Shown: one piece after another, positions 32,407-44,869 of the stretch | How the letters are laid out: each line of letters starts with the position of its first letter | Position numbering within the stretch: the stretch's first letter is position 1 | Assembly: GCA_021129775.1 (NCBI GenBank) | Contig: JAJOKP010000009.1 | Location: 1-44,869 of the forward strand | DNA: 44,869 bases | Direction: 5' to 3' | From: Clostridiales bacterium | GTDB taxonomy: Bacteria; Bacillota; Clostridia; Peptostreptococcales; NVVX01 | Position numbers and translations under genes: made by a program | The notes under the pieces: model-generated | Databases searched by the model: none | What the model saw: the letters and a program-made list of their open reading frames with translations, nothing else | What the model was told of the DNA's origin: nothing

Positions 32407-32444
32407 AAAAGTACCGCGGGGACAGTCCTCGCGGTACTTTTTTT
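32407..32444. terminator. Bidirectional terminator between transporter and SLH gene
   Basis: GTACCGCGGGGACAGTCCTC-GCGGTAC (32411-32437) forms a strong stem flanked by A-run on the left and TTTTTTT on the right, so it can stop the plus-strand transporter and the opposing SLH gene. It belongs to the same GGGGAC-GTCCTC hairpin family as the repeats at 29304 and 37902. Confidence 0.85.
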
Positions 32445-34305
32445 AATTTGCTTTATCTATAACAATTCTGTCTGCAATAAATACACCTCTGCTACTAGTA
32501 CCTCTTATTGAGATTTCATCACCTACACTTAAACTTCTAAATGTCAGCCTTTCACCAGCTTCTCCAATGTAAATAGTTTTACTTGTTACACTAATCTGCA
32601 TTATAGTACCATCGCTTTTCGATATTTCTATTTTGCCAATGTCATCGTGAATAAATGTAATTTCTCCTCTTATAATTTCAGGGTCTATTTCTGCAGAAGT
32701 TATCACGCGCATCACTTCATTACTTTCAATCTTCAACTCAACATTAAAACTTAATCTTAGATCATATATCTCTGATGTTCTATCATCAATTTCAATAAAT
32801 GTGTTCTCGGTTATCTCAAATTCTTCTCTAACTCCATCTTTAGTTTCAACCATTAGAAATGATTGTTCCCCAATAACAATTCTTCTGACCAAACCTTTTA
32901 CATCTCTTTTTACAGTAGACGCGTTTAGCCTTATTAGTTTTTCGTATACCAATTCCGCCTTTATTTCATCTGAAATTCTAATTTCAGCAAAAGTAGTTAT
33001 TCTTCCATCTCTAGTTAGGCGCGAATTCTCTTCTACAACAATCACTTCACTTCCATTATCTTCAGTCATTATTTCAATATATGGATTAGACAATGTTCCC
33101 TTCGCTGTAATAGTACCTTCTATAAATTTCACTTTGCTTCTACCTTCCACTTCCAAAACAAATTCAGCATTAGCAATTATTTTCACTACGTCGCCTTCTT
33201 CAAAATTCGCAAGAGCGTCTTCTCTATCGTTTAACCTCACAATTGTACCATCTGGAATAATAAACGTTTCGTTTGTTCCATCCTCTCTAGTAATACTTAA
33301 AACATTTCTTGTTGTTGCTCTAATAAATCTTCTAAAATATCCATTTATCACTTCATTATTTTCTTCAGCACTTATTTCTTTGATTTGTCCATTAATTATT
33401 GTTAGATTAACAATTTGCCCCTTGACTAAATCCTTAAGTATTGCTTCTTCTCCATCAATTTCAACTACTACATCTTCGTGTATATCAAATAGCAATTGCT
33501 TATTCATATCATCAAAAACTGTTAATATACTTCGATTCGCAATTACAACTCCAGATAACACAGCTTCAATTGTTTCTGTTTTGTCTTCTCCCTGTTGTTC
33601 ATCTTGTTCGTTTTGCTTAGTTTGTCCGTTATCTTCTTCAACTGATACATCTAGGAGCTCTGACGCAATAGCTACTAGTTTCGCAACTTCCGCTCTTGTG
33701 ATCTCGTCATTTGGCAAAAACCTGCCTTCATTGCTTTCACTATTTAGGAGTCCCTCAACTAGCATTAAATCTACATAAGGTCTTGAAGTAGACGGTATAA
33801 ACATTTCGTCTTTATAAGGAAGTGAAAAAATTGTTCTAGTAGATTTATCTGCATGATTCACCAAAACACGACCGATAAGATTTGCGACTTCATATCTCTT
33901 TGCTCTCTGACTTGTTTTATTTACAATTAGTCCCTCTAATTCGTCTTCTTTAATAATTTCCTCCACCATCAGGTAAGCTAGCCTGCTTTTTGCCCACTCG
34001 GGTATACCATGTTCGCTAAATAACTCAACATAATCATTCTCATAATTATGTAAGCCTTCATCGAAACCTATTAAGTTACTCGCCATCGCTACAGTTTCAA
34101 GTCCTGTAATTGAATTGTTTGGTCTAAATGTTGCGTCCGCATAACCCGAAGTGATGTTCAAATTATAGATTTTTTCAATATATTCCCTCGCCCAATGTCC
34201 TTCAATATCTGTAAAAACCAAACCTTGCGAATATACCGCAAAACTATTTGCTATAAGCAGTATAATAAGCATTGTTATGATTACAATTCGTCTCTTATGC
34301 CCCAT
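32443..34305 (-). CDS. Secreted SLH-domain surface protein
   Basis: A 620-residue exported protein. The signal peptide spans residues 1-27 (basic start MGHKRR, hydrophobic core, SFAVYSQG). SLH-type modules follow at about 30-80 (FTDIEGHWAREYIEKIY, GYADATFRPNNSIT), a degenerate one at 100-150 and a third at about 165-225 (YVDLMLVEGLL, FLPNDEITRAEVAKLV); these bind pyruvylated wall polymer. A Gln/Glu/Asp linker (about 228-246) leads to a long beta-rich region (about 250-620) with recurring modules around I-x-G-x-I and D-G-T. It lies about 100 bases after the last Tad-locus gene on the same strand. A link to the pilus-like system is plausible but unproven. Confidence 0.85.
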   Translation of the reverse strand: MGHKRRIVIITMLIILLIANSFAVYSQGLVFTDIEGHWAREYIEKIYNLNITSGYADATFRPNNSITGLETVAMASNLIGFDEGLHNYENDYVELFSEHGIPEWAKSRLAYLMVEEIIKEDELEGLIVNKTSQRAKRYEVANLIGRVLVNHADKSTRTIFSLPYKDEMFIPSTSRPYVDLMLVEGLLNSESNEGRFLPNDEITRAEVAKLVAIASELLDVSVEEDNGQTKQNEQDEQQGEDKTETIEAVLSGVVIANRSILTVFDDMNKQLLFDIHEDVVVEIDGEEAILKDLVKGQIVNLTIINGQIKEISAEENNEVINGYFRRFIRATTRNVLSITREDGTNETFIIPDGTIVRLNDREDALANFEEGDVVKIIANAEFVLEVEGRSKVKFIEGTITAKGTLSNPYIEIMTEDNGSEVIVVEENSRLTRDGRITTFAEIRISDEIKAELVYEKLIRLNASTVKRDVKGLVRRIVIGEQSFLMVETKDGVREEFEITENTFIEIDDRTSEIYDLRLSFNVELKIESNEVMRVITSAEIDPEIIRGEITFIHDDIGKIEISKSDGTIMQISVTSKTIYIGEAGERLTFRSLSVGDEISIRGTSSRGVFIADRIVIDKAN

Positions 34306-34408: not shown

Positions 34409-35191
34409 TTAGTCGCGAAAGCTTTGTTCAATCGTGGTCCCAACTACATTATAATTCTTGAATATAAATTCTTCATTATTTATTTTTTTTACCACTTCAT
34501 CACTATACACAATAAAAAATGTTATACCTTCTAAGACATTAAAATTTGCTTCAATCATCTTTTTATAAATATCCTCTGTATGTTTATTCCTAATGTTGAT
34601 GCTCAATATACTGCACATCCCTTCTTGAAAAGTGTGCTTTGCAACTACTTCATTAATTTTATCAATAATTATTTGCTCTTTGTCTTCATTTGAAATCCCA
34701 AATTTCCTAGTTTCTTTATACACTCTTGTGTTATCATTATTGTATATGTAAGCTAAGCTGTTCTTGATACTCAAATACACTATTTCATCTGAATAATTAT
34801 GCATAAAAAAAGTTGGCAATCCCCATATATCTTCATCACTAGCATAGTACAGACGATTATGCTCCACAAGAATCTTTGCCTTAATATTTGATAGTACTTT
34901 CTCTCTCTTGTTTTTATTCGGAAAGTTTTTATGCACCATGTCATAAAACGAGCTTAATAGCTTGTCCCTATCTACAATTATTTCAGTTCCAAATCTATCG
35001 CTGTTTTCAAGCATTAGCTTAGATTGATTTATATCTTCCTTTTGTATTGAGTTTATTAAAACTTTAGATGATAAAACCAACCTTTGTTTAACATCTGTCA
35101 CTTCATAATGATTCTCGACTAAATTAAACATCGGCAAAAATAAAAACAACGCCATAATTAGGATTACTATCAAAGCAACAATTTGTCCCAT
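34409..35191 (-). CDS. Membrane-anchored protein of the Tad-like locus (hypothetical 1)
   Basis: A 260-residue protein with one N-terminal hydrophobic helix (about 4-24, IVALIVILIMALFLFLPMF) and a soluble mostly alpha/beta remainder outside the membrane. I do not recognise a named family. It is the last of four small anchored proteins downstream of tadC, a position held by pseudopilin/TadE-like genes in Tad loci. No prepilin cleavage motif is clear. Start: ATG with AGAGGG. Confidence 0.75.
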   Translation of the reverse strand: MGQIVALIVILIMALFLFLPMFNLVENHYEVTDVKQRLVLSSKVLINSIQKEDINQSKLMLENSDRFGTEIIVDRDKLLSSFYDMVHKNFPNKNKREKVLSNIKAKILVEHNRLYYASDEDIWGLPTFFMHNYSDEIVYLSIKNSLAYIYNNDNTRVYKETRKFGISNEDKEQIIIDKINEVVAKHTFQEGMCSILSINIRNKHTEDIYKKMIEANFNVLEGITFFIVYSDEVVKKINNEEFIFKNYNVVGTTIEQSFRD

Positions 35192-35204
35192 AGCAACACG
35201 CCCT

Positions 35205-35936
35205 CTACTGTTGGTTGTAGCTTATTTGCTTTATGCTTCCATCTTCATAGTATTTAAAACTTCTAACAAAATCGCCGTTGTCAAAAATGTAGTTTAGACC
35301 AGTGTTCGCCCTTTCGTCATCGCTGTCCCCATAATGAAGATTTGAGATGCTAATATTTTGATGTGAGTCCGAGCCATAAAACTTTCCATTTGGATTCATT
35401 TTTGTCACAACAAATACCGCAATTTTTTTTTCATGTTCTTTTTTATGAATGTTTGAAGTAACATCATACCCCTTCACTAAATCGCTATATGCTTTTGTTA
35501 TTATACCAGTCATAATCGAATTAACTCTCATATCTATTTTTTCAGTAGGTAGCGGGCTGTAAAGACTACTATTTAACAGTCTTCCAAACAAAGTTAGTTC
35601 TCTATCTTCAACATATATAGTTACCCTATCACCTCGTCTTAATCTTTGTCCTACTATTAAATCTTTGTCAAAATACACATCATACAATCCATCTTTAACG
35701 AGCTTTTCTAATTTCATTTTGATTTTATAGTCCCCAAATCTGCTGAGTCTCTCATTCAAGTAGTTGAATGCCCTTTCACTAAATATTCCATTCGTACTTA
35801 CTGACTCTAAAGTGTGAAAGTTAATCATATTAACCGATTCTCTAACACTTAAATGCATGAAATAGGTAGAGATAATTAATATCGTAAGCGTTATAAACAT
35901 AATTGAAACTACTCCAGCTATTGTCTTTCCTATCAT
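35205..35936 (-). CDS. Membrane-anchored protein of the Tad-like locus (hypothetical 2)
   Basis: A 243-residue protein with an N-terminal helix (about 5-28, TIAGVVSIMFITLTILIIS) then an extracytoplasmic domain with a central basic segment (QRLRRGDRVTIYVED). Begins MIGKTIAG. AGGAGTG precedes the ATG by five bases. It lies 13 bases upstream of the 260-residue protein and 24 after the 115-residue one, so all are one transcript. Family not recognised; position suggests a minor pilin or assembly factor. Confidence 0.75.
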   Translation of the reverse strand: MIGKTIAGVVSIMFITLTILIISTYFMHLSVRESVNMINFHTLESVSTNGIFSERAFNYLNERLSRFGDYKIKMKLEKLVKDGLYDVYFDKDLIVGQRLRRGDRVTIYVEDRELTLFGRLLNSSLYSPLPTEKIDMRVNSIMTGIITKAYSDLVKGYDVTSNIHKKEHEKKIAVFVVTKMNPNGKFYGSDSHQNISISNLHYGDSDDERANTGLNYIFDNGDFVRSFKYYEDGSIKQISYNQQ

Positions 35937-35960
35937 ATGTCACTCCTTGTATCCTCCTAA

Positions 35961-36308
35961 TTACCTGCTCAAATCAACCTGAGTAAACCTAATATTAGAC
36001 AGGTCCCCATTAGCATTGTAAGTCTTAACCATTGAAAACAAAGCGCCGTCTTTTACATTTTTGATTTGGATAGCTGTAGTATTATTAGCTTGAAAAATAC
36101 TAATGGTTATTCCCTCCATCTTGTTGTAGCCCTTCAACGTATTTCCAGTTACTATATCTGGATTCTGCAACATCAATTTCACTTTATGCTGTTCAATTGC
36201 CGCTTGATCACCTACATCTTTTGCACCTGCAACCTGTCCTAAAATTGCATAACCAATTAACCCTAACACTAATACTATCCCCACTATTGTCGCTATTGCC
36301 TTGTCCAT
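35961..36308 (-). CDS. Small pilin-like protein, 115 residues
   Basis: Starts at the ATG 36306-36308 behind GAGGAG; a TTG 15 bases upstream would cover that site. The product is MDKAIATIVGIVLVLGLIGYAILGQ... with one helix at about 6-26 and a short exported domain with many Asn, Thr and Gln. Size and layout resemble a Flp- or pseudopilin-type subunit, and GLIGYAILG recalls the Flp helix, but the Flp processing site (G/XXXXEY) is absent. It is the best candidate for the main fibre subunit in this window, with moderate certainty. Confidence 0.7.
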   Translation of the reverse strand: MDKAIATIVGIVLVLGLIGYAILGQVAGAKDVGDQAAIEQHKVKLMLQNPDIVTGNTLKGYNKMEGITISIFQANNTTAIQIKNVKDGALFSMVKTYNANGDLSNIRFTQVDLSR

Positions 36309-36319
36309 TTTTTCACTCC

Positions 36320-36700
36320 TCAATTTTTAATAATATTCACCTTTACAATTTTGCTGTTCTCATAAACTACCTCGCTATCAAATTTCATTTCAAGCGGAAT
36401 ACTAAATACCAATGAATCATAAGTCTCTAGCGTATAATTCTTCTGCTCTCCTAATATTGAGACACTTACTTCTACACCCGCATTCTTGCTATAATATCTA
36501 ATAATTGATATAACTTCACTTCCTGTTAAATATTCATTTAACACTGGGACGAAATCTATCTCTCCGATCTTCTCCATAGCATGTGTTTGCTCTGCAGTCA
36601 TTCTAATAATTTCAATATTTCCTCTCCATAAACTAATTCCCACTAAAAGTAACCCCAAGATAATTACTGAAATTATGATTGTCGCTATTACCTCTTTCAT
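36320..36700 (-). CDS. Small membrane-anchored protein of the Tad-like locus (hypothetical 3)
   Basis: A 126-residue protein: MKEVIATIIISVIILGLLLVGISLW anchor followed by an exported domain of about 95 residues. GGGGTG lies five bases before the ATG. The N-terminal Lys-Glu-Val followed at once by a hydrophobic helix recalls pseudopilins after processing, though no clear leader is present. It begins 28 bases after tadC. Confidence 0.72.
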   Translation of the reverse strand: MKEVIATIIISVIILGLLLVGISLWRGNIEIIRMTAEQTHAMEKIGEIDFVPVLNEYLTGSEVISIIRYYSKNAGVEVSVSILGEQKNYTLETYDSLVFSIPLEMKFDSEVVYENSKIVKVNIIKN

Positions 36701-36728: not shown

Positions 36729-37835
36729 TTAAATTAGACGACTCATCTCATATGCGAGTAACCATGGTATTAGCATATACATCGTAAGCATTGCTATTAA
36801 TATAAAACACCCTATTATTCCCCAAGCATTAATAACTTCCATTTGTTTTTTTACTGCTCTTATTTCCCTTCTTTTTTCAATGTAAAATTCATTTTTAATA
36901 TTTTCAACTGCTAACGTAAAATTATAGTTGTTAGCCTGATCTAGTTTTTCGTAAAATAGTTTTAAATCAATGTCTTTGCTATTAGCGACAAACTCTGTAT
37001 ATATCGTCTTACTATCAATTGAATTTTTGTTGTTCATTTTCTTGATTTCTTTGAGTGTGTTAGCATAGTACTTAGACTTAGAGATCAGTATTGACAATGT
37101 CTCCATAAAGCTTGCTGGAGCTATTGAACCATTCAATATTATTAGTCTTTTCAAAAAACGCAGTTCTTTTTTTGCATTTTTCCGCGAGAAAAAATTGAGT
37201 ATTATTAACACAAGTTCTGGTATGCTGCAGCAAAAAATGATTATAAAAAGCATACTTGCGACATCTATTTCTTTTGTAAGAAGGTAATCTGTAATCCTAT
37301 AAAAAACCTTGTTTACAGCGGTCACTTCTGGCAATTCAAATTCTATTCCCAACTTTTTAGTCAAAACGAAAAGTTCTGTCTGTATTTCTTCTCTAGTCAT
37401 AGATTGAAGTTCTTTAATCGTTACCTTCTCAAGTAGCGCATTAAATAATCTTATTTCGTCCTCTAATGCTTTCTCTGTGTTAATTTCATGCCTACTAATT
37501 TGATAAATTGCATCGTAATTATATTCAAAAGTTCCAATTATCTTTTCAGTAATCATATTTATGTTAGTTGCTCTTACCGAGAATATTAGCACCATTACAA
37601 AAAATAGTATCATAACCTTGGCTATTATTATGTCTGCTACTGTCAAATTTGAGTGCCTTAGCAGTCTTTTATAGAATACATCAACGGTAATCAATGCTTT
37701 TCTTTTAAGTAGTTTTGTAATAGCAGCGCAGATTTTTTCATAAATGCTCTTGTTGATTTCGTCAATTTGCTTAACCCTAAATCCTCTTGTTTTACTAAGC
37801 AAATAAGTGACTAAAAATAAGAAAGCAAGAAACAT
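36729..37835 (-). CDS. tadC: TadC-like inner-membrane platform protein
   Basis: A 368-residue integral membrane protein with helices near the N-terminus, at about 65-85, 190-215 and 345-365, and a T2SSF-like soluble segment between. It is the second of two adjacent platform proteins, as in Tad systems, where TadB and TadC form the inner-membrane base driven by the CpaF/TadA ATPase. The ATG used (37833-37835) has no ribosome site. An AGGAAGG lies about 40 bases upstream and the frame is open there, so a non-ATG start adding about 10 residues is possible. Sequence conservation to TadC is weak; the call rests on topology and order. Confidence 0.75.
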   Translation of the reverse strand: MFLAFLFLVTYLLSKTRGFRVKQIDEINKSIYEKICAAITKLLKRKALITVDVFYKRLLRHSNLTVADIIIAKVMILFFVMVLIFSVRATNINMITEKIIGTFEYNYDAIYQISRHEINTEKALEDEIRLFNALLEKVTIKELQSMTREEIQTELFVLTKKLGIEFELPEVTAVNKVFYRITDYLLTKEIDVASMLFIIIFCCSIPELVLIILNFFSRKNAKKELRFLKRLIILNGSIAPASFMETLSILISKSKYYANTLKEIKKMNNKNSIDSKTIYTEFVANSKDIDLKLFYEKLDQANNYNFTLAVENIKNEFYIEKRREIRAVKKQMEVINAWGIIGCFILIAMLTMYMLIPWLLAYEMSRLI

Positions 37836-37938: not shown

Positions 37939-38934
37939 TTACGCGGTCCTTTCCAATAATAACAAAATACCTATATACATTAATAGTGCAACCATAATAA
38001 TAATTTTCAGCCCCATGCCAGCTGGACTAGTATAAAACTCCACAGATTTTTCTTCTAATGCTTGATTATTAAATCTCTCTAGCCAAGTGATTGCAAACGG
38101 AGTAAACAGAGAAATCACAATGTACATTCTGCTAGTAAAAGCCAAGTCTCTTTGGTTTTCAATGTCAATTTGGATTTCTTCAGTTACCATTTCAAACTGC
38201 TGCTGAATGCTTTCTTTTCCACCCTTATAGTAAGCCTGTCTAATTAAACTAAGTAATATTGTTAAATATTCATCTCTATAAACTTTCTCCATGCTAGAAA
38301 AAGTTTCTTCGATTTTTTTAGGGTTGTTTTTTCTTAAAACGTTCCTAATTCTAGTCATTTCTCTTCGCATTGCATTGGGTAAATCAACTATTGACACATC
38401 AATAACCTTTACAATGTTGGATTCAGTAGTAAATCTGCTGTTTAAAATTTTAAACGTCTTTGGAAGTTGTGATGTAAAACGTATTCTGACCATAAGGTTA
38501 AACGTGTACAATGCAAATAGAATTAGTAATAATGCCAAAAACTGATAAAACAGAAATAAGTACCATACTACTTTAGCCTGCGGCACTACAAACATTAATG
38601 TAATCCCTATGAAGATACTAGCAAGCAGTAACACTCCTGCGTTTTCCTCGTTCTTCTCGCTTGAGCTACTATTGAATATACTTAGCCTCAAAGCTAAAAA
38701 TTCAATCACTTTTTTCAAAATGCCCAAATTAGATAGAGTGATTAATATTTTTCGGGGCAGAGCTGTAGAATTACTTCTTATTAAATATTTTCTCCTTCTA
38801 CGTTCTCTTAGCAGTGCTTTAGTAAAAATATGAAATAATAAGATAACCCCTGCAAAAAACAATGTCAATAATAGAACGTCAGAATAAGTTAATGATTCAA
38901 AAATATTTATGATAGCTACACATATTTTCATCAT
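37939..38934 (-). CDS. tadB: TadB-like inner-membrane platform protein
   Basis: A 331-residue protein with helices at about 15-40, 95-120, 125-150, 270-290 and 310-330 and a T2SSF-type cytoplasmic domain between (MEKVYRDEYLTILLSLIRQAYYKGGKESIQQQF region). I start it at the ATG 38932-38934, four bases after the CpaF stop, rather than at an ATG 147 bases upstream inside the ATPase gene. It sits directly after the motor ATPase, as in Tad loci. Confidence 0.8.
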   Translation of the reverse strand: MMKICVAIINIFESLTYSDVLLLTLFFAGVILLFHIFTKALLRERRRRKYLIRSNSTALPRKILITLSNLGILKKVIEFLALRLSIFNSSSSEKNEENAGVLLLASIFIGITLMFVVPQAKVVWYLFLFYQFLALLLILFALYTFNLMVRIRFTSQLPKTFKILNSRFTTESNIVKVIDVSIVDLPNAMRREMTRIRNVLRKNNPKKIEETFSSMEKVYRDEYLTILLSLIRQAYYKGGKESIQQQFEMVTEEIQIDIENQRDLAFTSRMYIVISLFTPFAITWLERFNNQALEEKSVEFYTSPAGMGLKIIIMVALLMYIGILLLLERTA

Positions 38935-38938
38935 GTTT

Positions 38939-40576
38939 TCACCGCTTCGCCGATTCAATACGTCTATTGAACATTTTCTTAAACTCGTCGATTTTTTCAC
39001 TCGACACATATTGTGAAATTTTCTTGAAATATGCTTCCGTAGGACAGTTGACAGGAATCCATTTACGCTTTTCTTCATCATATTTTATTATTTCGTTATA
39101 TCTATAGCATTTTTTGTCAATCGCTCTTACAAAATAAATTTGTGCAATATCTATTAAATTATGTATTTTTTCTTCTAATGTTACATCAAATTTCGGTTCA
39201 ACATTTAATTCATTGCCTGTAAAAACAATTTCCACAATTTCGTCTACAATAATTCTTCCGCATTTAAGTTTCTTTAGGTGAATAACCAAATCAACACCTC
39301 TTGCTATATCTTCTTCTGCTTTTTCACTGTCATTATAAGTTGCCGTTCTCATCATTAAATTTCTACAATTAGTGACAGCATCAAAAGGCGAAAGCAAGTG
39401 AATTGTCGCTCCTACGCCTGCATTTAGCCTTAAACATGCATTAATTAACTCACTAATTTCGTCAGGCTTAGTTATTTCGCCAATGTATAGAACATCTCTC
39501 GACATTTTTAATATTATTTGAAACTGCTCAGCAATTGTTCTTTTAGGGTTTTCTATCAAAGTGATTATGTTTTTCAATGGATATTTTTGCCTTGCCTGTA
39601 GTTCGTCTTGCGTATCCAATATTCCAATTCCCCAATAGTTAGGTACTTTCTCTAACATAGACAGTAAAAAAGTTGATTTCCCAACCCCCATGTCACTCCC
39701 CGAAATAAGATGCGAACCTCGTCCTTCTTGATTGATTAGCAACAAACTATATATTAGATCATCAATTGTTCTATATTTGTTTTTCATTTCTTCTAATGTG
39801 ATTTTCCTTATAACGAAAATTCTTTCATTAATTATTAAATCCTCGTCTGTAGCTGTCGCTGAAAAACCTGCTACGGTAATACGATTTGAGTTCATTTTCG
39901 ACGCGGTGACAGTCGGATTTTGTTCGTCATATTGAATCTTAGCGTTTGACGTAATTTTTTTTTGAATATTAATTATAATTTCTTTGTTTTGAAATTTTAG
40001 AAACTCTAAGTGAATCTTCAATCCTTTATATATGATATAGACATAGTCTTTATCCACTACCCCAATTTCATTTATCATATGATGCTGAAGTGTGTCTACG
40101 ATATTTTGTCCGTCATCTAAGTTATATACTAGGGTTGCAAGTAATCTAATCTTCTCCCTAAAGTCGTTAAATCTATTGTTAATAGTTTCTTGTTCATTCT
40201 CAACCACTTTTTTTAGCATTGATGCACTAAAGCATATTTCAAGTTTGTATTTGTCAATTACTTCAGACATGTCGAAACAATGCAGTAGTATTTCAAACAA
40301 TATATTGTCGCTATTCTTTAAAATATTCTCAAATGAAATAATAGCATTAATGTTTTTCTCACAAAAACCTAAACCATCTGCCAAAACTTTTGAGTATTGA
40401 TTTATCACATAACTCCGCGCATTTTTATCTCCTAATACCGCTCTACTCTTTATTACAGTGAAATCCTTTATTTCTTCATAAGCTTGATCTATGCTTATTT
40501 TATATATTTCACTGTATTTATCTGCATCTTCAAATATTGATTCAATTTCTAGGACAACGTCCTCTAATCTATTCAT
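38939..40576 (-). CDS. cpaF: CpaF/TadA-type secretion ATPase
   Basis: A 545-residue type II/IV secretion ATPase that would power pilus assembly. The N-terminal 230 residues are helical and unlike standard CpaF. The motor part has Walker A GSDMGVGKST (293-302), the Asp box region GILDTQDEL, Walker B DVLYIGEI (361-368) and the His box GATIHLLSPFDA (389-400), each with the family spacing. AGGGAG precedes the ATG. It is between the CpaE-like gene and tadB. The N-terminus is more diverged than usual, so the partner interface may be different. Confidence 0.88.
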   Translation of the reverse strand: MNRLEDVVLEIESIFEDADKYSEIYKISIDQAYEEIKDFTVIKSRAVLGDKNARSYVINQYSKVLADGLGFCEKNINAIISFENILKNSDNILFEILLHCFDMSEVIDKYKLEICFSASMLKKVVENEQETINNRFNDFREKIRLLATLVYNLDDGQNIVDTLQHHMINEIGVVDKDYVYIIYKGLKIHLEFLKFQNKEIIINIQKKITSNAKIQYDEQNPTVTASKMNSNRITVAGFSATATDEDLIINERIFVIRKITLEEMKNKYRTIDDLIYSLLLINQEGRGSHLISGSDMGVGKSTFLLSMLEKVPNYWGIGILDTQDELQARQKYPLKNIITLIENPKRTIAEQFQIILKMSRDVLYIGEITKPDEISELINACLRLNAGVGATIHLLSPFDAVTNCRNLMMRTATYNDSEKAEEDIARGVDLVIHLKKLKCGRIIVDEIVEIVFTGNELNVEPKFDVTLEEKIHNLIDIAQIYFVRAIDKKCYRYNEIIKYDEEKRKWIPVNCPTEAYFKKISQYVSSEKIDEFKKMFNRRIESAKR

Positions 40577-40588
40577 CCATATCGCTCC

Positions 40589-41440
40589 CTACTCTACTCC
40601 CCACGAGGCGCGAAGTATTTTTTTAATATCCCACTTGGCTTTGTATTTTTGCTTGCTTTCATTAACAAACGAATGATTAGCGTATTTACCTAGTATATGC
40701 TCAACAATTTTTCTGTTTTCTCCGCAATTTATTGTAGTATCCTCACAACTGTTAAAAATGTAGTTTAGCAATGTCTTGTTATTGCATTCGTTTATTAAGT
40801 CCCCATCAAAATCTAATTTAAAAACACTTTCATTCATAATCCCCTTTTGCTGTAAAAGCATCTTTATTTTCTTAAAGTCCAGACTAATTTTGCTCCCGTT
40901 TATTTCTTCAACATATTTATTGACAATAAAAATGTTCTTGCTGTTATATCTGCACATTTCATTGCCATTAGTTGCTAATTCTAAAACATTTGTGTCCTGC
41001 GACAGAACTGTTATAACAACCTCTGCTTTTGCTAATATATTTTTTGTTATTTCACCATCACTTGCAATTGTATCTGCAATAACAAAAGAATACTCTTTAC
41101 TTGAATGCTCTACGATATTTTTAACATCTCTTTCGTCAATTTGCATACATATATTTGACGTCATTATATCAATTTTCTCGCTTACCTGTTTTGTGCATTT
41201 TTTAAATATATCACTTTCGTTTTCTACTCCAATGCTATACATATTTTTAAAATCGTCAATTCCTTTATTCACCTTAGATTCACTTAAATATTTTGCGACA
41301 TCTCTAAATTTTTGATTAAAATCAATTAACAAGCATTTTTTCCCAGTTAATTTTGCAAACATCATAGCTAGGTTAATCGCCATTACAGTCTGACCTAGTC
41401 CCTTTTTAGGGGAAGTAACCGCCATAAACAATAAACTCAC
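40589..41440 (-). CDS. cpaE: CpaE/MinD-like protein with altered P-loop
   Basis: A 283-residue ParA/MinD-fold protein. At residues 11-18 the loop reads PKKGLGQT: the signature Lys of deviant Walker A is kept (Lys12), but the P-loop Lys is Gln17 (codon CAG). The following INLAMMFAKLTGKKCLLIDFN and FVIADTIAS segments are normal. CpaE-type proteins localise or control Tad assembly. Loss of the P-loop Lys predicts weak or absent ATP hydrolysis. GTG 41438-41440 is used as start, directly after the TAG of the upstream gene; the ATG at 41423-41425 is an alternative. Confidence 0.8.
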   Translation of the reverse strand: MSLLFMAVTSPKKGLGQTVMAINLAMMFAKLTGKKCLLIDFNQKFRDVAKYLSESKVNKGIDDFKNMYSIGVENESDIFKKCTKQVSEKIDIMTSNICMQIDERDVKNIVEHSSKEYSFVIADTIASDGEITKNILAKAEVVITVLSQDTNVLELATNGNEMCRYNSKNIFIVNKYVEEINGSKISLDFKKIKMLLQQKGIMNESVFKLDFDGDLINECNNKTLLNYIFNSCEDTTINCGENRKIVEHILGKYANHSFVNESKQKYKAKWDIKKILRASWGVE

Positions 41441-42199
41441 CTACTCCCCTTCATCCTGCGAAATCTTACTTTCAACATCTATTAGTAGTTCTTCCATTGC
41501 TAGTTCATGATTAAAAGTAACATTAGACGATTTCTGCTCATTGTCGATGTATAATCTAGTCGTAAGCTCTCCTAATTTGCTTGCTAAGGCTAAATCTCTA
41601 AACTGAATCTCATCTACCGCTAAAACTATTACGTACTCTTTACTTTTTTGATCTGCCTTTTCTTTATCTGAAATGCTTACTATTTTTATGTTTGAAACTA
41701 CAATATCGTAATCTCCATTTCCATAGTCCACAATAATATCCACATAGTTACCCGCTTTTACTTTGCCATCTACTAAATTTACTACTGAATACTCTTTTAA
41801 CCTTTGAAAGTCACCTCGTTTGTTTTCTAGGGTCACAAAAAAATCTGCAATAATTTGTTGCCCACTTGTTAGGTTTTGTTTACTTAGTTTCCCAATTATA
41901 TCTTCAATATTACCAGTCGCGTGCCTAGCAACAAACTTAGTTGGTACTTCTACTATTTCAAAATGTTCTTCTATAATTTCAGAACTCATTTTTGTATTTT
42001 TATCAATCCCTTTTTCTGATTTAACTACAAATATTCGTTCTGTAGGCATTGCCATTATATCAATTTCTCTACGTATTTCATTTTCAACTACTTCTTTAAT
42101 TTGGGGAATTTTAATATTGTTGTAATAATAAATAATTGCGGCAACTACTATACAAACAACGCCTCCGATTAACAGCATTCTCTCTTTTCTATTTCTCAC
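41441..42199 (-). CDS. cpaB: CpaB/RcpC-like SAF-domain protein
   Basis: A 252-residue protein with one membrane helix (about 8-28) and an extracytoplasmic SAF domain (about 58-130, with VPTKFVARHATG and LTSGQQIIADFF), as in CpaB/RcpC pilus-assembly proteins. The GTG at 42197-42199 is the start because AGAGGTGG lies four bases upstream. A longer frame from an ATG at 42265 merely reads through the GGGCACCCAC repeat (42231-42258), so it should be rejected. The C-terminal 100 residues are acidic and diverged. Confidence 0.82.
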   Translation of the reverse strand: MRNRKERMLLIGGVVCIVVAAIIYYYNNIKIPQIKEVVENEIRREIDIMAMPTERIFVVKSEKGIDKNTKMSSEIIEEHFEIVEVPTKFVARHATGNIEDIIGKLSKQNLTSGQQIIADFFVTLENKRGDFQRLKEYSVVNLVDGKVKAGNYVDIIVDYGNGDYDIVVSNIKIVSISDKEKADQKSKEYVIVLAVDEIQFRDLALASKLGELTTRLYIDNEQKSSNVTFNHELAMEELLIDVESKISQDEGE

Positions 42200-42227
42200 A
42201 ATTCCACCTCTTTTTCTTTTCGCTTTC

Positions 42228-42345
42228 TTTCGGGCACCCACGAGGGGAGCCCCTACATGTAACATCTTTTTCTTCTCTTTTCCCTATCCTTTCCTAACCA
42301 ACTAACTAACCAACTATCCAATTTTCTTTTTTCCACGTCCTTCCC
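42228..42345. repeat. GGGCACCCAC repeat followed by a polypyrimidine tract
   Basis: CGGGCACCCACGAGGGGAGC-CCCTACATG at 42230-42258 matches the repeat in the prfA-ywlC gap and, less well, 44614-44637. It continues into TTTTTCTTCTCTTTTCCC and CCTAACCAACTAACTAACC, almost the same as 18590-18600. It fills the 184-base space (42200-42383) between the kinase and cpaB genes, so the transcript has a long A/G-rich leader there. Confidence 0.65.
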
Positions 42346-42383
42346 TCCTTGGTATGACGTGCCTGTGGGAAAGCCTCCAGAGA

Positions 42384-44306
42384 TCACTTTATTGACCCAA
42401 AAAACTTCATTAATTTCTTCTTAACGCTATGATCACTTATGACCATGCTTGGAAAGTAATAATCACCTAATAACCTAAAATCATCACGAAACTTACTACC
42501 TTCTACGCTTATAGCTGCTCTTCTTTCTGCTAAACCTTTTAAAATAGCACCATAGTCGTTCTTCACTGTGAAAACACTACCTATTTTGAGCTTCAAACCT
42601 TCGTTATCTGAATTAATTTGCTTGAGCAAAGATATTATTGCATCTTTGTCTAAAAAACTAATATCTGTGTATTTATTTATCAATAAATCGACTGTTTCCA
42701 CTCCGCTAAAATATTTATTCACGTTCTTTGAAATTCTATTTATATGGTTAACCCTTTGGTCCGTAACAAAAAGTATATGATCTGCTAATAAGAAAACACT
42801 ATCTTTTATTTTTTCACTTGCCATATTGGACAAATCTACAATAACCGCTTCAGATTTTTTCTTAGAATCACTTATTAACTTCATGATTGCATTATTTGCA
42901 ATATTGCATTCGATATCTCTATGTTCTGAATAAACATCTAAATATTTGTTTATTTTCTGAGCTAGTTTTTGATTTTTTTCTTGGTCAATGCGACTCAAAC
43001 AATTAGTGTAATCATTTTCGAAATGATAGTACACATCTTTCTTATTGGTATCTGTGTCAATTAATGTAGTATGAATTCTTCTAGCGCTAAGTTCATAAGA
43101 TAAGTTTACTGCAATAGTAGTTTTGCCTACACTTTCTAAACTTGCAACCACAATCACTTTTTTGCTTTTAAAGCTGTTTCTGCTACCTCTATCCTCACAT
43201 TTTATATGCTTCCATCGCCTATTTTCGATTATTATATTTGCCTCTTCAATTAATTCCCCCATATTTTGGTGTCTACATTCACTGTTTTTATCAATTGCTT
43301 TTAATATAATCTTCTTTAATTCGTCTGATATATTTATGTATTTTAATTCAGAACGTTCATCATCAGGAAATGCATTTGTTAATAAATAGTGGAGCATCAT
43401 GCCCAAGTTATATACATCGGTTCTCTTATCGAAAAGTCCCTTTTTCTGTTCAGGCGCTGCAAATTCAATTGTCATGCCTGATAATTTATCACACATTTCA
43501 TGCGGGATTTCACTTGCAGTCCCAAAGTCTATTAATATAGCATCCCCTTCAGGAGAAATAATTACATTTGATGGCTTCATATCCCTATATATGATTGGAG
43601 AAGGATTAAAATTGTGCAAATAACTAAGTACTTTTGCTAATTGCAGCCCCCATTTCAACACATCACCTTCAGAAAACGGACCTTCTTTTTCCATTTTCAT
43701 TTGTAGCGAAGTGCCCTCTATATAAGTTTGAACAATATAAGCACCATTTTCGTCACTAAACACATCAATAATTCTAGGCAAGTTAATATGATTTAATTTT
43801 ATTAAAACCTCTTTTTCTGCCTGAATTAGTCTCTGTTTGAAATTTCCATTATAAAAATGTTTGATCGCCAAATAATTGCCTAGTTCTATATTCGTACACA
43901 GGTAAACCCTGCCCATTCCGCCTTGCCCTAAAACTTTCACAATCCTAAATTTTTTATTAATGACAGTTCCAGTTTTAAAGGTGTTTTTATAATTGCTTGA
44001 GTTGTTATACCTACTGAAATTGTCTAATTCTATTTTAATGTCTTCGCTATTATCTCCAGCTAGCAGTTCTGTTTCTAGATTGTTGGTTTCTAGATTACTC
44101 GTTTCTAAATTGTTTGTTTCCAGAAACTCTGACATTTCAGCCTCATCATGTCTATCTCTTGTAATTATGTCTTCACTTCTATAAACATCGAATTCTCTCG
44201 TTTTTTCTAGTTTGATAATTTTTTTGCTGTCGCTATCTGAGTGAATGATAAATAGTACCGCACAAATTGTTAAAAAAGCTATAATTATAAGTATCATAGT
44301 GGTCAA
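42384..44306 (-). CDS. Membrane Ser/Thr protein kinase fused to a MinD/ParA-type ATPase
   Basis: A 640-residue fusion. A membrane helix (about 4-22) is followed by a linker with four LETNN-type pentapeptides (62-81) and a Hanks-type kinase (about 115-360): glycine loop GQGGMG (127-132), Lys149, catalytic YRDMKPSN (Asp242), DFG (260-262), AAPEQ. From about 383 a MinD/CpaE-type domain begins: ASLESVGKTT (388-397) keeps the P-loop Lys395 but has Leu390 where the signature Lys belongs; LIDTDTN follows. The likely start is the TTG 44304-44306 behind AGAGGGTG; a GTG three codons earlier overlaps this site. It heads the Tad-like operon and probably controls its assembly; the target is unknown. Confidence 0.88.
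   Translation of the reverse strand: MTTMILIIIAFLTICAVLFIIHSDSDSKKIIKLEKTREFDVYRSEDIITRDRHDEAEMSEFLETNNLETSNLETNNLETELLAGDNSEDIKIELDNFSRYNNSSNYKNTFKTGTVINKKFRIVKVLGQGGMGRVYLCTNIELGNYLAIKHFYNGNFKQRLIQAEKEVLIKLNHINLPRIIDVFSDENGAYIVQTYIEGTSLQMKMEKEGPFSEGDVLKWGLQLAKVLSYLHNFNPSPIIYRDMKPSNVIISPEGDAILIDFGTASEIPHEMCDKLSGMTIEFAAPEQKKGLFDKRTDVYNLGMMLHYLLTNAFPDDERSELKYINISDELKKIILKAIDKNSECRHQNMGELIEEANIIIENRRWKHIKCEDRGSRNSFKSKKVIVVASLESVGKTTIAVNLSYELSARRIHTTLIDTDTNKKDVYYHFENDYTNCLSRIDQEKNQKLAQKINKYLDVYSEHRDIECNIANNAIMKLISDSKKKSEAVIVDLSNMASEKIKDSVFLLADHILFVTDQRVNHINRISKNVNKYFSGVETVDLLINKYTDISFLDKDAIISLLKQINSDNEGLKLKIGSVFTVKNDYGAILKGLAERRAAISVEGSKFRDDFRLLGDYYFPSMVISDHSVKKKLMKFFGSIK
44064..44123 (-). repeat. 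Four tandem 15-bp units coding LETNN pentapeptides
   Basis: Residues 62-81 of the kinase read LETNN, LETSN, LETNN, LETEL from a 15-base tandem repeat. It lies in the linker between the membrane helix and the kinase domain. Copy number may vary among strains. Confidence 0.8.
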
Positions 44307-44467
44307 ATCAAACACCCTCTTAATTCATATTCACTTTTAATATAAATATTTGTTTCTATTTTCTAGCCGTAGTCTCCTCAATTTTCGAAGAAACAATATC
44401 ATGCAATCACGCATGCGCCGTCGATTTCAGAATCCCTCCCCCTAACATAGTCGTGTATATCAAAATT

Positions 44468-44637: not shown

Positions 44638-44656
44638 TTGCTGTCATTAACTGTTG

Positions 44657-44869
44657 TCAAGCTTCTTCGTCTTGCTCATCATCGTCATCATCTTCTTCTT
44701 GTTCTTCATTCTCGTCTTGATCATCTCCACCCTCTTCTTGTTCTTCATTATCGTCTTGTTCATCGTCATCATCATCGTCTTGTTCTTCATCCTCATCTTG
44801 CTCATAGCCATCTTTATCTTGTTCTTCGTTCTCATCTTGTTCTTCATTATCACCTTGATCATCATCATC
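44657..44869 (-). CDS. Acidic low-complexity C-terminus of a protein beginning outside the window
   Basis: In the frame ending at TGA 44657-44659 the minus strand codes 70 residues composed almost only of Asp, Glu, Gln and Asn (units such as DDDDQGDNEEQDENEEQ and ending DDDDDEQDEEA). The DNA is a degenerate repeat of GAAGAACAAGAT-like words. The frame is open to the right edge. Another frame rich in Met and Lys overlaps but has no ribosome site and is rejected. A charged tail of a secreted or wall protein is possible; the main part lies beyond the window. Confidence 0.7.
   Translation of the reverse strand, partial: DDDDQGDNEEQDENEEQDKDGYEQDEDEEQDDDDDDEQDDNEEQEEGGDDQDENEEQEEDDDDDEQDEEA

Follow-up and report, generated by a model that had tools for sequence, protein, structure and literature searches.

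In the DNA stretch analysed here (the window: 44,869 nucleotides, contig JAJOKP010000009.1 of assembly GCA_021129775.1, Clostridiales bacterium), a minus-strand operon encodes two MinD-type proteins beside genes resembling those of Tad/Flp (type IVc) pili: A1, in which a MinD-type domain is fused to a Ser/Thr protein kinase, and A2, a stand-alone CpaE-like protein. The reading that we favour, at about even confidence, is that the pair represents a kinase-bearing variant of the CpaE/TadZ module of Tad pili, split into an ATP-binding signalling protein (A1) and a scaffold (A2). It is supported by the operon order, the MinD/ParA fold with 3EA0 as the best match, the receiver-like A1 relatives, the intact kinase motifs, the amphipathic C-termini, CpaE-type proteins without A1 that have also dropped the P-loop Lys, and the ring model of Caulobacter CpaE (PMC13170226). 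Judged from the aligned sequences, A1 and A2 differ systematically, and beyond the window genome, in which of the two nucleotide-binding lysines they retain; a complete shared ATP site is not what holds the A1/A2 family together. The features of the two proteins are as follows.

42384-44315, minus strand: A1, composed of an N-terminal membrane helix, a Ser/Thr protein kinase and a MinD-type domain (Pfam Pkinase, 3.4e-38; CbiA, 4.4e-05)
43290-43946, minus strand: A1 protein kinase domain, residues 124-342, with the motifs GQGGMG, AIK, YRDMKPSN, DFG and APEQ intact
42387-43163, minus strand: A1 MinD-type domain, residues 385-643 (AlphaFold2 pLDDT 86, pTM 0.86; PDB folds 3EA0, FlhG and MinD)
43137-43139, minus strand: A1 Leu393 (Leu390 from TTG), signature-Lys position by sequence and alignment
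43122-43124, minus strand: A1 Lys398 (Lys395 from TTG), retained P-loop Lys by sequence, invariant in A1 alignment A3
40589-41440, minus strand: A2, stand-alone MinD/CpaE-type protein of 283 amino acids (Pfam AAA_31, 3.7e-10; AlphaFold2 pLDDT 75; PDB folds 3EA0 and MinD)
41405-41407, minus strand: A2 Lys12, retained signature Lys by sequence (Lys in 22 and Arg in 4 of 26 A2 proteins)
41390-41392, minus strand: A2 Gln17, in place of the P-loop Lys by sequence (Gln in 18/18 type-I A2 proteins)
41315-41317, minus strand: A2 Asn42, in place of the predicted catalytic Asp (Asn in 24/26 A2 proteins)

The two MinD-type proteins

The A1 open reading frame extends over 643 amino acids from GTG 44315 and reads KKVIVVASLESVGKTTIAVNLS, with VIVVASLESVGKTT in the loop region, and that of A2 reads MAVTSPKKGLGQTVMAINLA, with AVTSPKKGLGQTV in the motif region. 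These readings confirm the initial annotation, which had placed two MinD-type proteins in one operon, the kinase-fused one with the P-loop Lys kept and the signature Lys gone, and the CpaE-like one with signature Lys12 kept and Gln17 at the P-loop Lys position. Its numbering of A1 (Leu390 and Lys395) matches a TTG start at 44306, the residues being Leu393 and Lys398 when counted from GTG. The Shine-Dalgarno-like AGAGGGTG of this TTG is better spaced than that of GTG 44315, and TTG is, on these sequence grounds, the more likely start. When aligned from the P-loop GKT, Leu393 occupies the signature-Lys position of MinD, whereas Glu394 falls there in a MAFFT alignment, because the strand preceding the loop is one residue shorter in A1 than in MinD; Lys is absent under either alignment. 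From Ser through GKT, the A1 loop has the spacing of a classical Walker A. In A2, a further substitution had been overlooked, with Asn42 standing for the second Asp in the DxD switch, the presumed catalytic position by analogy with the family (MinD Asp40, Soj Asp41/44). Two genomes of the same genus keep the pair as A1 SLES[TS]GKTT and A2 SPKKGLGQTV, so that the lysine pattern is neither a sequence error nor chance. No second A2 copy was found in the source genome. Among the kinase motifs of A1, YRDMKPSN, DFG and APEQ were identified by a motif check, and the GQGGMG glycine loop and AIK by inspection.

The AlphaFold2 models of A1 and A2 both showed the MinD/ParA fold in Foldseek comparisons, with the ParA/CpaE-like structure 3EA0 as the top PDB match for both and BcsRQ among the top fold matches of each. 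Besides this fold, the pair shares with CpaE/TadZ proteins the location in a tad locus beside tadA and cpaB (CpaB-A2-TadA-TadB-TadC in the window and in relatives). The N-terminal (atypical) receiver domain of CpaE/TadZ is absent, the window A1 having a kinase and A2 no N-terminal domain, and neither protein scores above the curated CpaE-type model TIGR03815 (window A1, 17.2 bits vs a cut-off of 154; window A2, no match). Some A1 relatives contain a receiver-like domain, as indicated by weak Response_reg matches, and MinD-like C-terminal amphipathic segments occur in many A1 and A2 proteins. The deviant Walker A arrangement with both lysines in one loop is found neither in A1 (0/31) nor in the window A2.

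Residue states and operon types among relatives

The survey for partners covered genomes of the order (395) and of the class (391) together with named genome contigs, and the collected set comprises 31 A1 and 26 A2 proteins from Clostridia. The A1 profiles matched 12 of the 395 genomes of the order; at the same threshold, the 391 class genomes yielded G000 and G004 plus two ordinary proteins that matched weakly, and a first scan of the named genome contigs with A1 found no relative. The scan of those contigs with window-type A2 gave 15 loci, including those of Sporosalibacterium faouarense (L133) and Pseudobacteroides cellulosolvens (L138), and the class genomes added two distinct A2 loci (L150 in G073 and L151 in G309), the locus in G165 being the same as L134. 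About 24 partly related operons were compared, several contigs of metagenome-assembled genomes ending inside the operon; in G047, A1 and A2 lie on two contigs and are presumably linked.

Type I operons have an A2 with [KR]xG[LM]GQ[TS] and a divergent TadA, and type II operons an A2 starting with A[IVL]WSPKxGxG[KT] and an ordinary TadA; G056b and G029b fall outside both types. The N-terminal part of A1 is a kinase in the window genus, G004, G468, G493, G444, G456, L134, L138, L144 and L150, a receiver-like or unassigned region in G047, G029, G056, G491, L133, L135 and the first A1 of doubled loci, and a long linker with a membrane helix in the second A1 of L136 and L140-L143. All 11 kinase-fused A1 proteins checked have the kinase motifs YxDxKPxN, DFG and APEQ. 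In the five doubled loci (L136, L140, L141, L142 and L143), a tandem A1 pair precedes CpaB and A2; the linker of the second A1 is of low complexity, and that of L141 has a long run of EELRQ-like repeats. Three kinase-pseudoATPase fusions that have lost the whole P-loop head tad-type operons (L134 6706-8529; L138 7303-8997, P. cellulosolvens; L150 10808-12508). Stand-alone kinases closely resembling that of A1 are encoded at L043 8225-11649 and L042 7484-11048, and the former lies behind a second tad locus, with genes for a PP2C-type phosphatase and a DUF6382-containing FHA-domain protein next to it; this neighbourhood suggests that kinase signalling and Tad-type machines are associated in these relatives. 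In G491, A1 is present and A2 is absent from the operon. G004 at first appeared to hold an orphan A1 (L033 10445-12244), located beside a TmcAL-like gene at the site of a whole type-I operon in its congener G468, an impression overturned by a type-II tad operon with A2 and without A1 on a separate contig (L127 8275-13351).

The signature Lys occurs in none of the 31 A1 proteins. Their P-loop position is Lys in 25/31, Ala in L135 and Thr in L144, with no recognisable P-loop in four (L134, L138, L150 and L151), and 28 of the 29 aligned proteins retain the second DxD Asp. The A1 proteins of the window genus keep G, K and T of the P-loop and both switch Asp residues. In A2, by contrast, the signature position is always basic (26/26), the four Arg residues being those of G029b, L136 (motif APRKGLGQT), L150 and L151, and the P-loop position is Lys in 5/26, Gln in 18/26 and Thr in 3/26, that is, Lys is lost in 21/26; the second DxD position is Asp in two proteins (G056b and L150). 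All 18 type-I A2 proteins, ~30% identical overall, share Gln17, which therefore looks selected rather than decaying. Despite Gln17 and Asn42, Thr18, Asp40, Asp123 and Asn174 are invariant in five type-I A2 proteins, which fits nucleotide binding without efficient hydrolysis. As a control, we used ParA/MinD/CpaE-type proteins other than A1 and A2, 41 in all, from the same order or class and retrieved by the same searches: the signature Lys is present in 41/41, the P-loop Lys in 39/41, and the second DxD Asp in all but one. The two exceptions at the P-loop are CpaE-type proteins (KGGVGAT in G006 and KGGVGNT in G052), and no A1 was found in either genome.

The initial annotation implied that the two losses would co-occur in homologous loci, an expectation that fails in both directions. 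In the 24 operons with both proteins readable, which share ancestry and so do not give independent counts, 14 are complementary, 4 have the P-loop Lys in both proteins, 6 in neither and 0 in A2 only. A signature-less A1 thus accompanies an A2 with both lysines in 4 operons, and also in the split locus of G004. No site can be completed in the 6 operons in which the P-loop Lys is missing from both proteins; A2 there still has a basic residue (Lys or Arg) at position 12 along with Gln17, so that, at least in these operons, the A2 motif is kept for the sake of A2 itself. With Lys taken as ancestral, the A2 tree, drawn with a midpoint root and moderately supported, implies no fewer than three losses of the P-loop Lys (type-I stem; G029 and G056a; G029b). 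The absence of the signature Lys from A1 probably came first, because it is common to all A1 proteins. The A2 signature Lys might relax to Arg opposite an A1 that has lost its P-loop Lys; Arg is found in 2/6 such operons vs 2/18 others (Fisher P = 0.25, loci non-independent).

Explanations for the A1/A2 pair

In the split-module reading favoured here, the operon would make a divergent Tad/Flp pilus-type machine, in which the CpaE/TadZ role may be shared by two MinD-fold proteins. A1 would be the membrane-anchored signalling subunit (kinase here, receiver-like in relatives) with an ATP-binding domain of the classical Walker A type, relaying a kinase signal to the assembly or position of the motor. 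A2 would be the stand-alone CpaE-type scaffold, which keeps the signature Lys, with Gln and Asn occupying two positions used in hydrolysis, and probably binds nucleotide with slow or no hydrolysis. Both are probably seated at the membrane through their C-terminal amphipathic helices, beside the TadA motor, like the CpaE dimers of Caulobacter, six of which were fitted around the CpaF motor (PMC13170226); dimerisation of TadZ is ATP-dependent (PMC13170226). A1 and A2 may also pair, which in the window genus would yield a single complete ATP site. Several points weigh against this reading. The profile scores of A2 and of the window TadA, TadB and TadC all fall short of the curated cut-offs for known families, the Tad assignment comes from the genes named here, and contact of A1 or A2 with TadA or the membrane is what we infer. 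Moreover, the asymmetry of 0/31 vs 26/26 at the signature position is stronger than unlinked decay predicts and leaves room for a divided active site.

Such a divided site was the proposal of the initial annotation: an obligate, face-to-face A1:A2 heterodimer with a single site made of the P-loop Lys and catalytic Asp of A1 and the signature Lys of A2 acting in trans, the homodimers being dead. The residue asymmetry is as this proposal expects, at the signature and P-loop positions of both proteins and in the replacement of the catalytic Asp by Asn in A2, A1 mostly having and A2 usually lacking the residues that act in cis; A2 probably lost its P-loop Lys repeatedly, always opposite a signature-less A1. 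The obligate, mutually dependent nature of the losses did not stand: they are uncoupled in the 4 operons that keep the A2 P-loop Lys and in the 6 that lack it in both proteins yet keep [KR]xG[LM]GQ in A2, A1 occurs without A2 in the operon of G491, and the invariant Gln17 of the type-I A2 proteins is unlike a decaying position. CpaE-type proteins also drop the P-loop Lys where there is no A1, as in G006, G052 and Liberibacter (PMC8513845). Nor are homodimers of either protein necessarily inactive as a general rule. Eubacterium rectale TadZ has ATPase activity despite the loss of both lysines, a Lys of the neighbouring helix compensating (PMC10482377), the ATPase of MSMEG_3743 is unchanged after mutation of either lysine (PMC10482377), and McdA without the signature Lys is a strong ATPase (PMC9178275), so that in this family an inactive homodimer does not follow from a missing lysine. 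We would guess that the conserved lysines following DxD in A1 (KKD) are compensating residues of this kind. On balance, the obligate heterodimer is unlikely. A narrower form, for which we also see a low probability, would confine the composite site (A1 Lys398 and switch Asp, with A2 Lys12 in trans) to the window genus and several related lineages, where the heterodimeric ATPase would wire the Ser/Thr kinase to a one-site positioning ATPase on the Tad-type motor, lineages with the A1 P-loop lost keeping the pair as a scaffold. A switch with one shared active site is thus possible in the window genus and is not a general rule.

Alternatively, A1 may act independently as a BY-kinase-like or other SIMIBI switch or oligomer with a classical Walker A under the control of its kinase, dispensing with the signature Lys, A2 being a separate homodimeric CpaE. 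The A1 loop (GPESTGKT in G468) indeed has the classical Walker A form; by sequence, the A1 profile matches entries of the BY-kinase CapB best in the PDB, DxDxxKKDxYYHF of A1 resembles CapB DGDMRKPTQHYIF, and 13/14 A1 proteins match the BY-kinase model TIGR01007, if weakly. G491, with A1 and no A2, is also consistent with independence, and the role of A1 can be structural, since kinase-fused A1 proteins can lose the whole P-loop (L134, L138 and L150). The resemblance to BY-kinases is limited to sequence, however, and A1 as a BY-kinase was rejected on fold and cut-off: the nearest folds are ParA, MinD and FlhG, with BY-kinases absent from the top 50, and the window A1 scores 18.5 bits vs the TIGR01007 cut-off of 108. 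Furthermore, A1 has its Tyr residues in the last folded helix and lacks the flexible C-terminal Tyr tail with its Tyr cluster. We consider an independent A1 of this kind improbable. Degeneration of A1 and A2 alike into pseudo-ATPases with no catalytic role in the lineage would accord with the 6 operons devoid of any P-loop Lys and with the nearly constant Asn of A2, but is very unlikely in view of the intact P-loop and switch residues of the window-genus A1 and of Lys12, Gln17, Thr18, Asp40 and Asp123, which are kept among A2 proteins only ~30% identical overall.

Neighbouring genes and known systems

On the minus strand, the genes are ordered A1, CpaB-like, A2, TadA-like, TadB-like, TadC-like, four small membrane-helix proteins and an SLH-domain protein. 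G001 has the same genes in the same order, 59-77% identical to those of the window, and G002 has the first four in the window order. The remaining features are listed below.

41441-42265, minus strand: CpaB/RcpC-like pilus assembly protein, between A1 and A2 (Pfam RcpC, 1.1e-06; TIGR03177 CpaB, 1.4e-09, below cut-off)
38939-40576, minus strand: divergent TadA/CpaF-like motor ATPase, with Walker A GVGKST and Walker-B-like GEI (TIGR03819, 1.5e-11, below cut-off)
37939-39081, minus strand: TadB-like platform protein, by position and orthology (63% identical in G001)
36729-37835, minus strand: TadC-like platform protein, by position and orthology (59% identical in G001)
34409-36700, minus strand: four small membrane-helix proteins, pilin/pseudopilin-like by anatomy, conserved in G001, with no profile matches
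32443-34305, minus strand: SLH-domain protein closing the operon (75% identical in G001), possibly a surface-anchored component
44650-44869, continuing in L153 651-2926: RsgI-like anti-sigma factor upstream of the operon (RsgI_M, 4.9e-25)

The window TadA-like protein gave no Pfam match and can be aligned to ordinary TadA along its length. No profile match was obtained for the TadB-like protein and no convincing one for the TadC-like protein; the family membership of A2, TadB and TadC is taken from position and fold, because the profile scores are below cut-off. Upstream of the operon, a SigI-like sigma factor gene lies behind the RsgI-like gene, and a plus-strand open reading frame from 44491, overlapping the latter, is probably spurious.

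Tad pili are widespread, and the active site of their CpaE/TadZ ATPase is often degenerate; the operon series bears on what this ATPase does and on the reason for the degeneracy. In the series the CpaE/TadZ job is split, one subunit carrying a kinase, a receiver-like domain or no recognisable fusion partner. The two lysines occur in almost all of their possible states among these operons, which offer natural variants on the need for ATP hydrolysis, and A1/A2 is a testable case for a MinD-type heterodimer. The comparison also illustrates that a striking two-residue complementarity in a single genome can dissolve when relatives are examined. In the open literature searched, we found no papers on kinase-linked Tad loci or swapped lysine losses.

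Among known systems, BY-kinases (CapB and Wzc) resemble A1 in belonging to the MinD superfamily, in lacking the signature Lys and in weak sequence similarity; they are Tyr autokinases with a C-terminal Tyr tail, whereas A1 has a separate fused Ser/Thr kinase domain. Nbp35-Cfd1 and other deviant-Walker-A hetero-complexes, which function in Fe-S assembly, provide a case of two paralogues acting as one complex; swapped lysine losses are, to our knowledge, not known in complexes of this type. Type 1 McdA, a carboxysome-positioning ATPase, also lacks the signature Lys and retains the P-loop Lys (SGGQGKT), as A1 does, but is active by itself with McdB, with no paired partner ATPase (PMC9178275, PMC8262871). 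BcsQ is MinD-type and, like A2, lacks the P-loop Lys and is basic at the signature position (RGGVGTT; PMC9178275), but it serves cellulose secretion, and BcsR, with which it is paired, does not belong to the MinD type. CpaE/TadZ of Tad/Flp pili shares with the pair the ParA/MinD fold, the gene location beside tadA, an atypical Walker A, the receiver-like N-terminal domain (in A1 relatives) and the C-terminal amphipathic segment, and the loss of its P-loop Lys is known from Liberibacter (KGGVGSS; PMC8513845) and E. rectale TadZ (PMC10482377). It differs in that there is one MinD-type protein per operon instead of two, in that the window A1 has a Ser/Thr kinase and membrane helix instead of the receiver, and a classical Walker A, and in that A2 has no N-terminal domain, the window proteins lying far below the CpaE-type NCBIfam cut-off.

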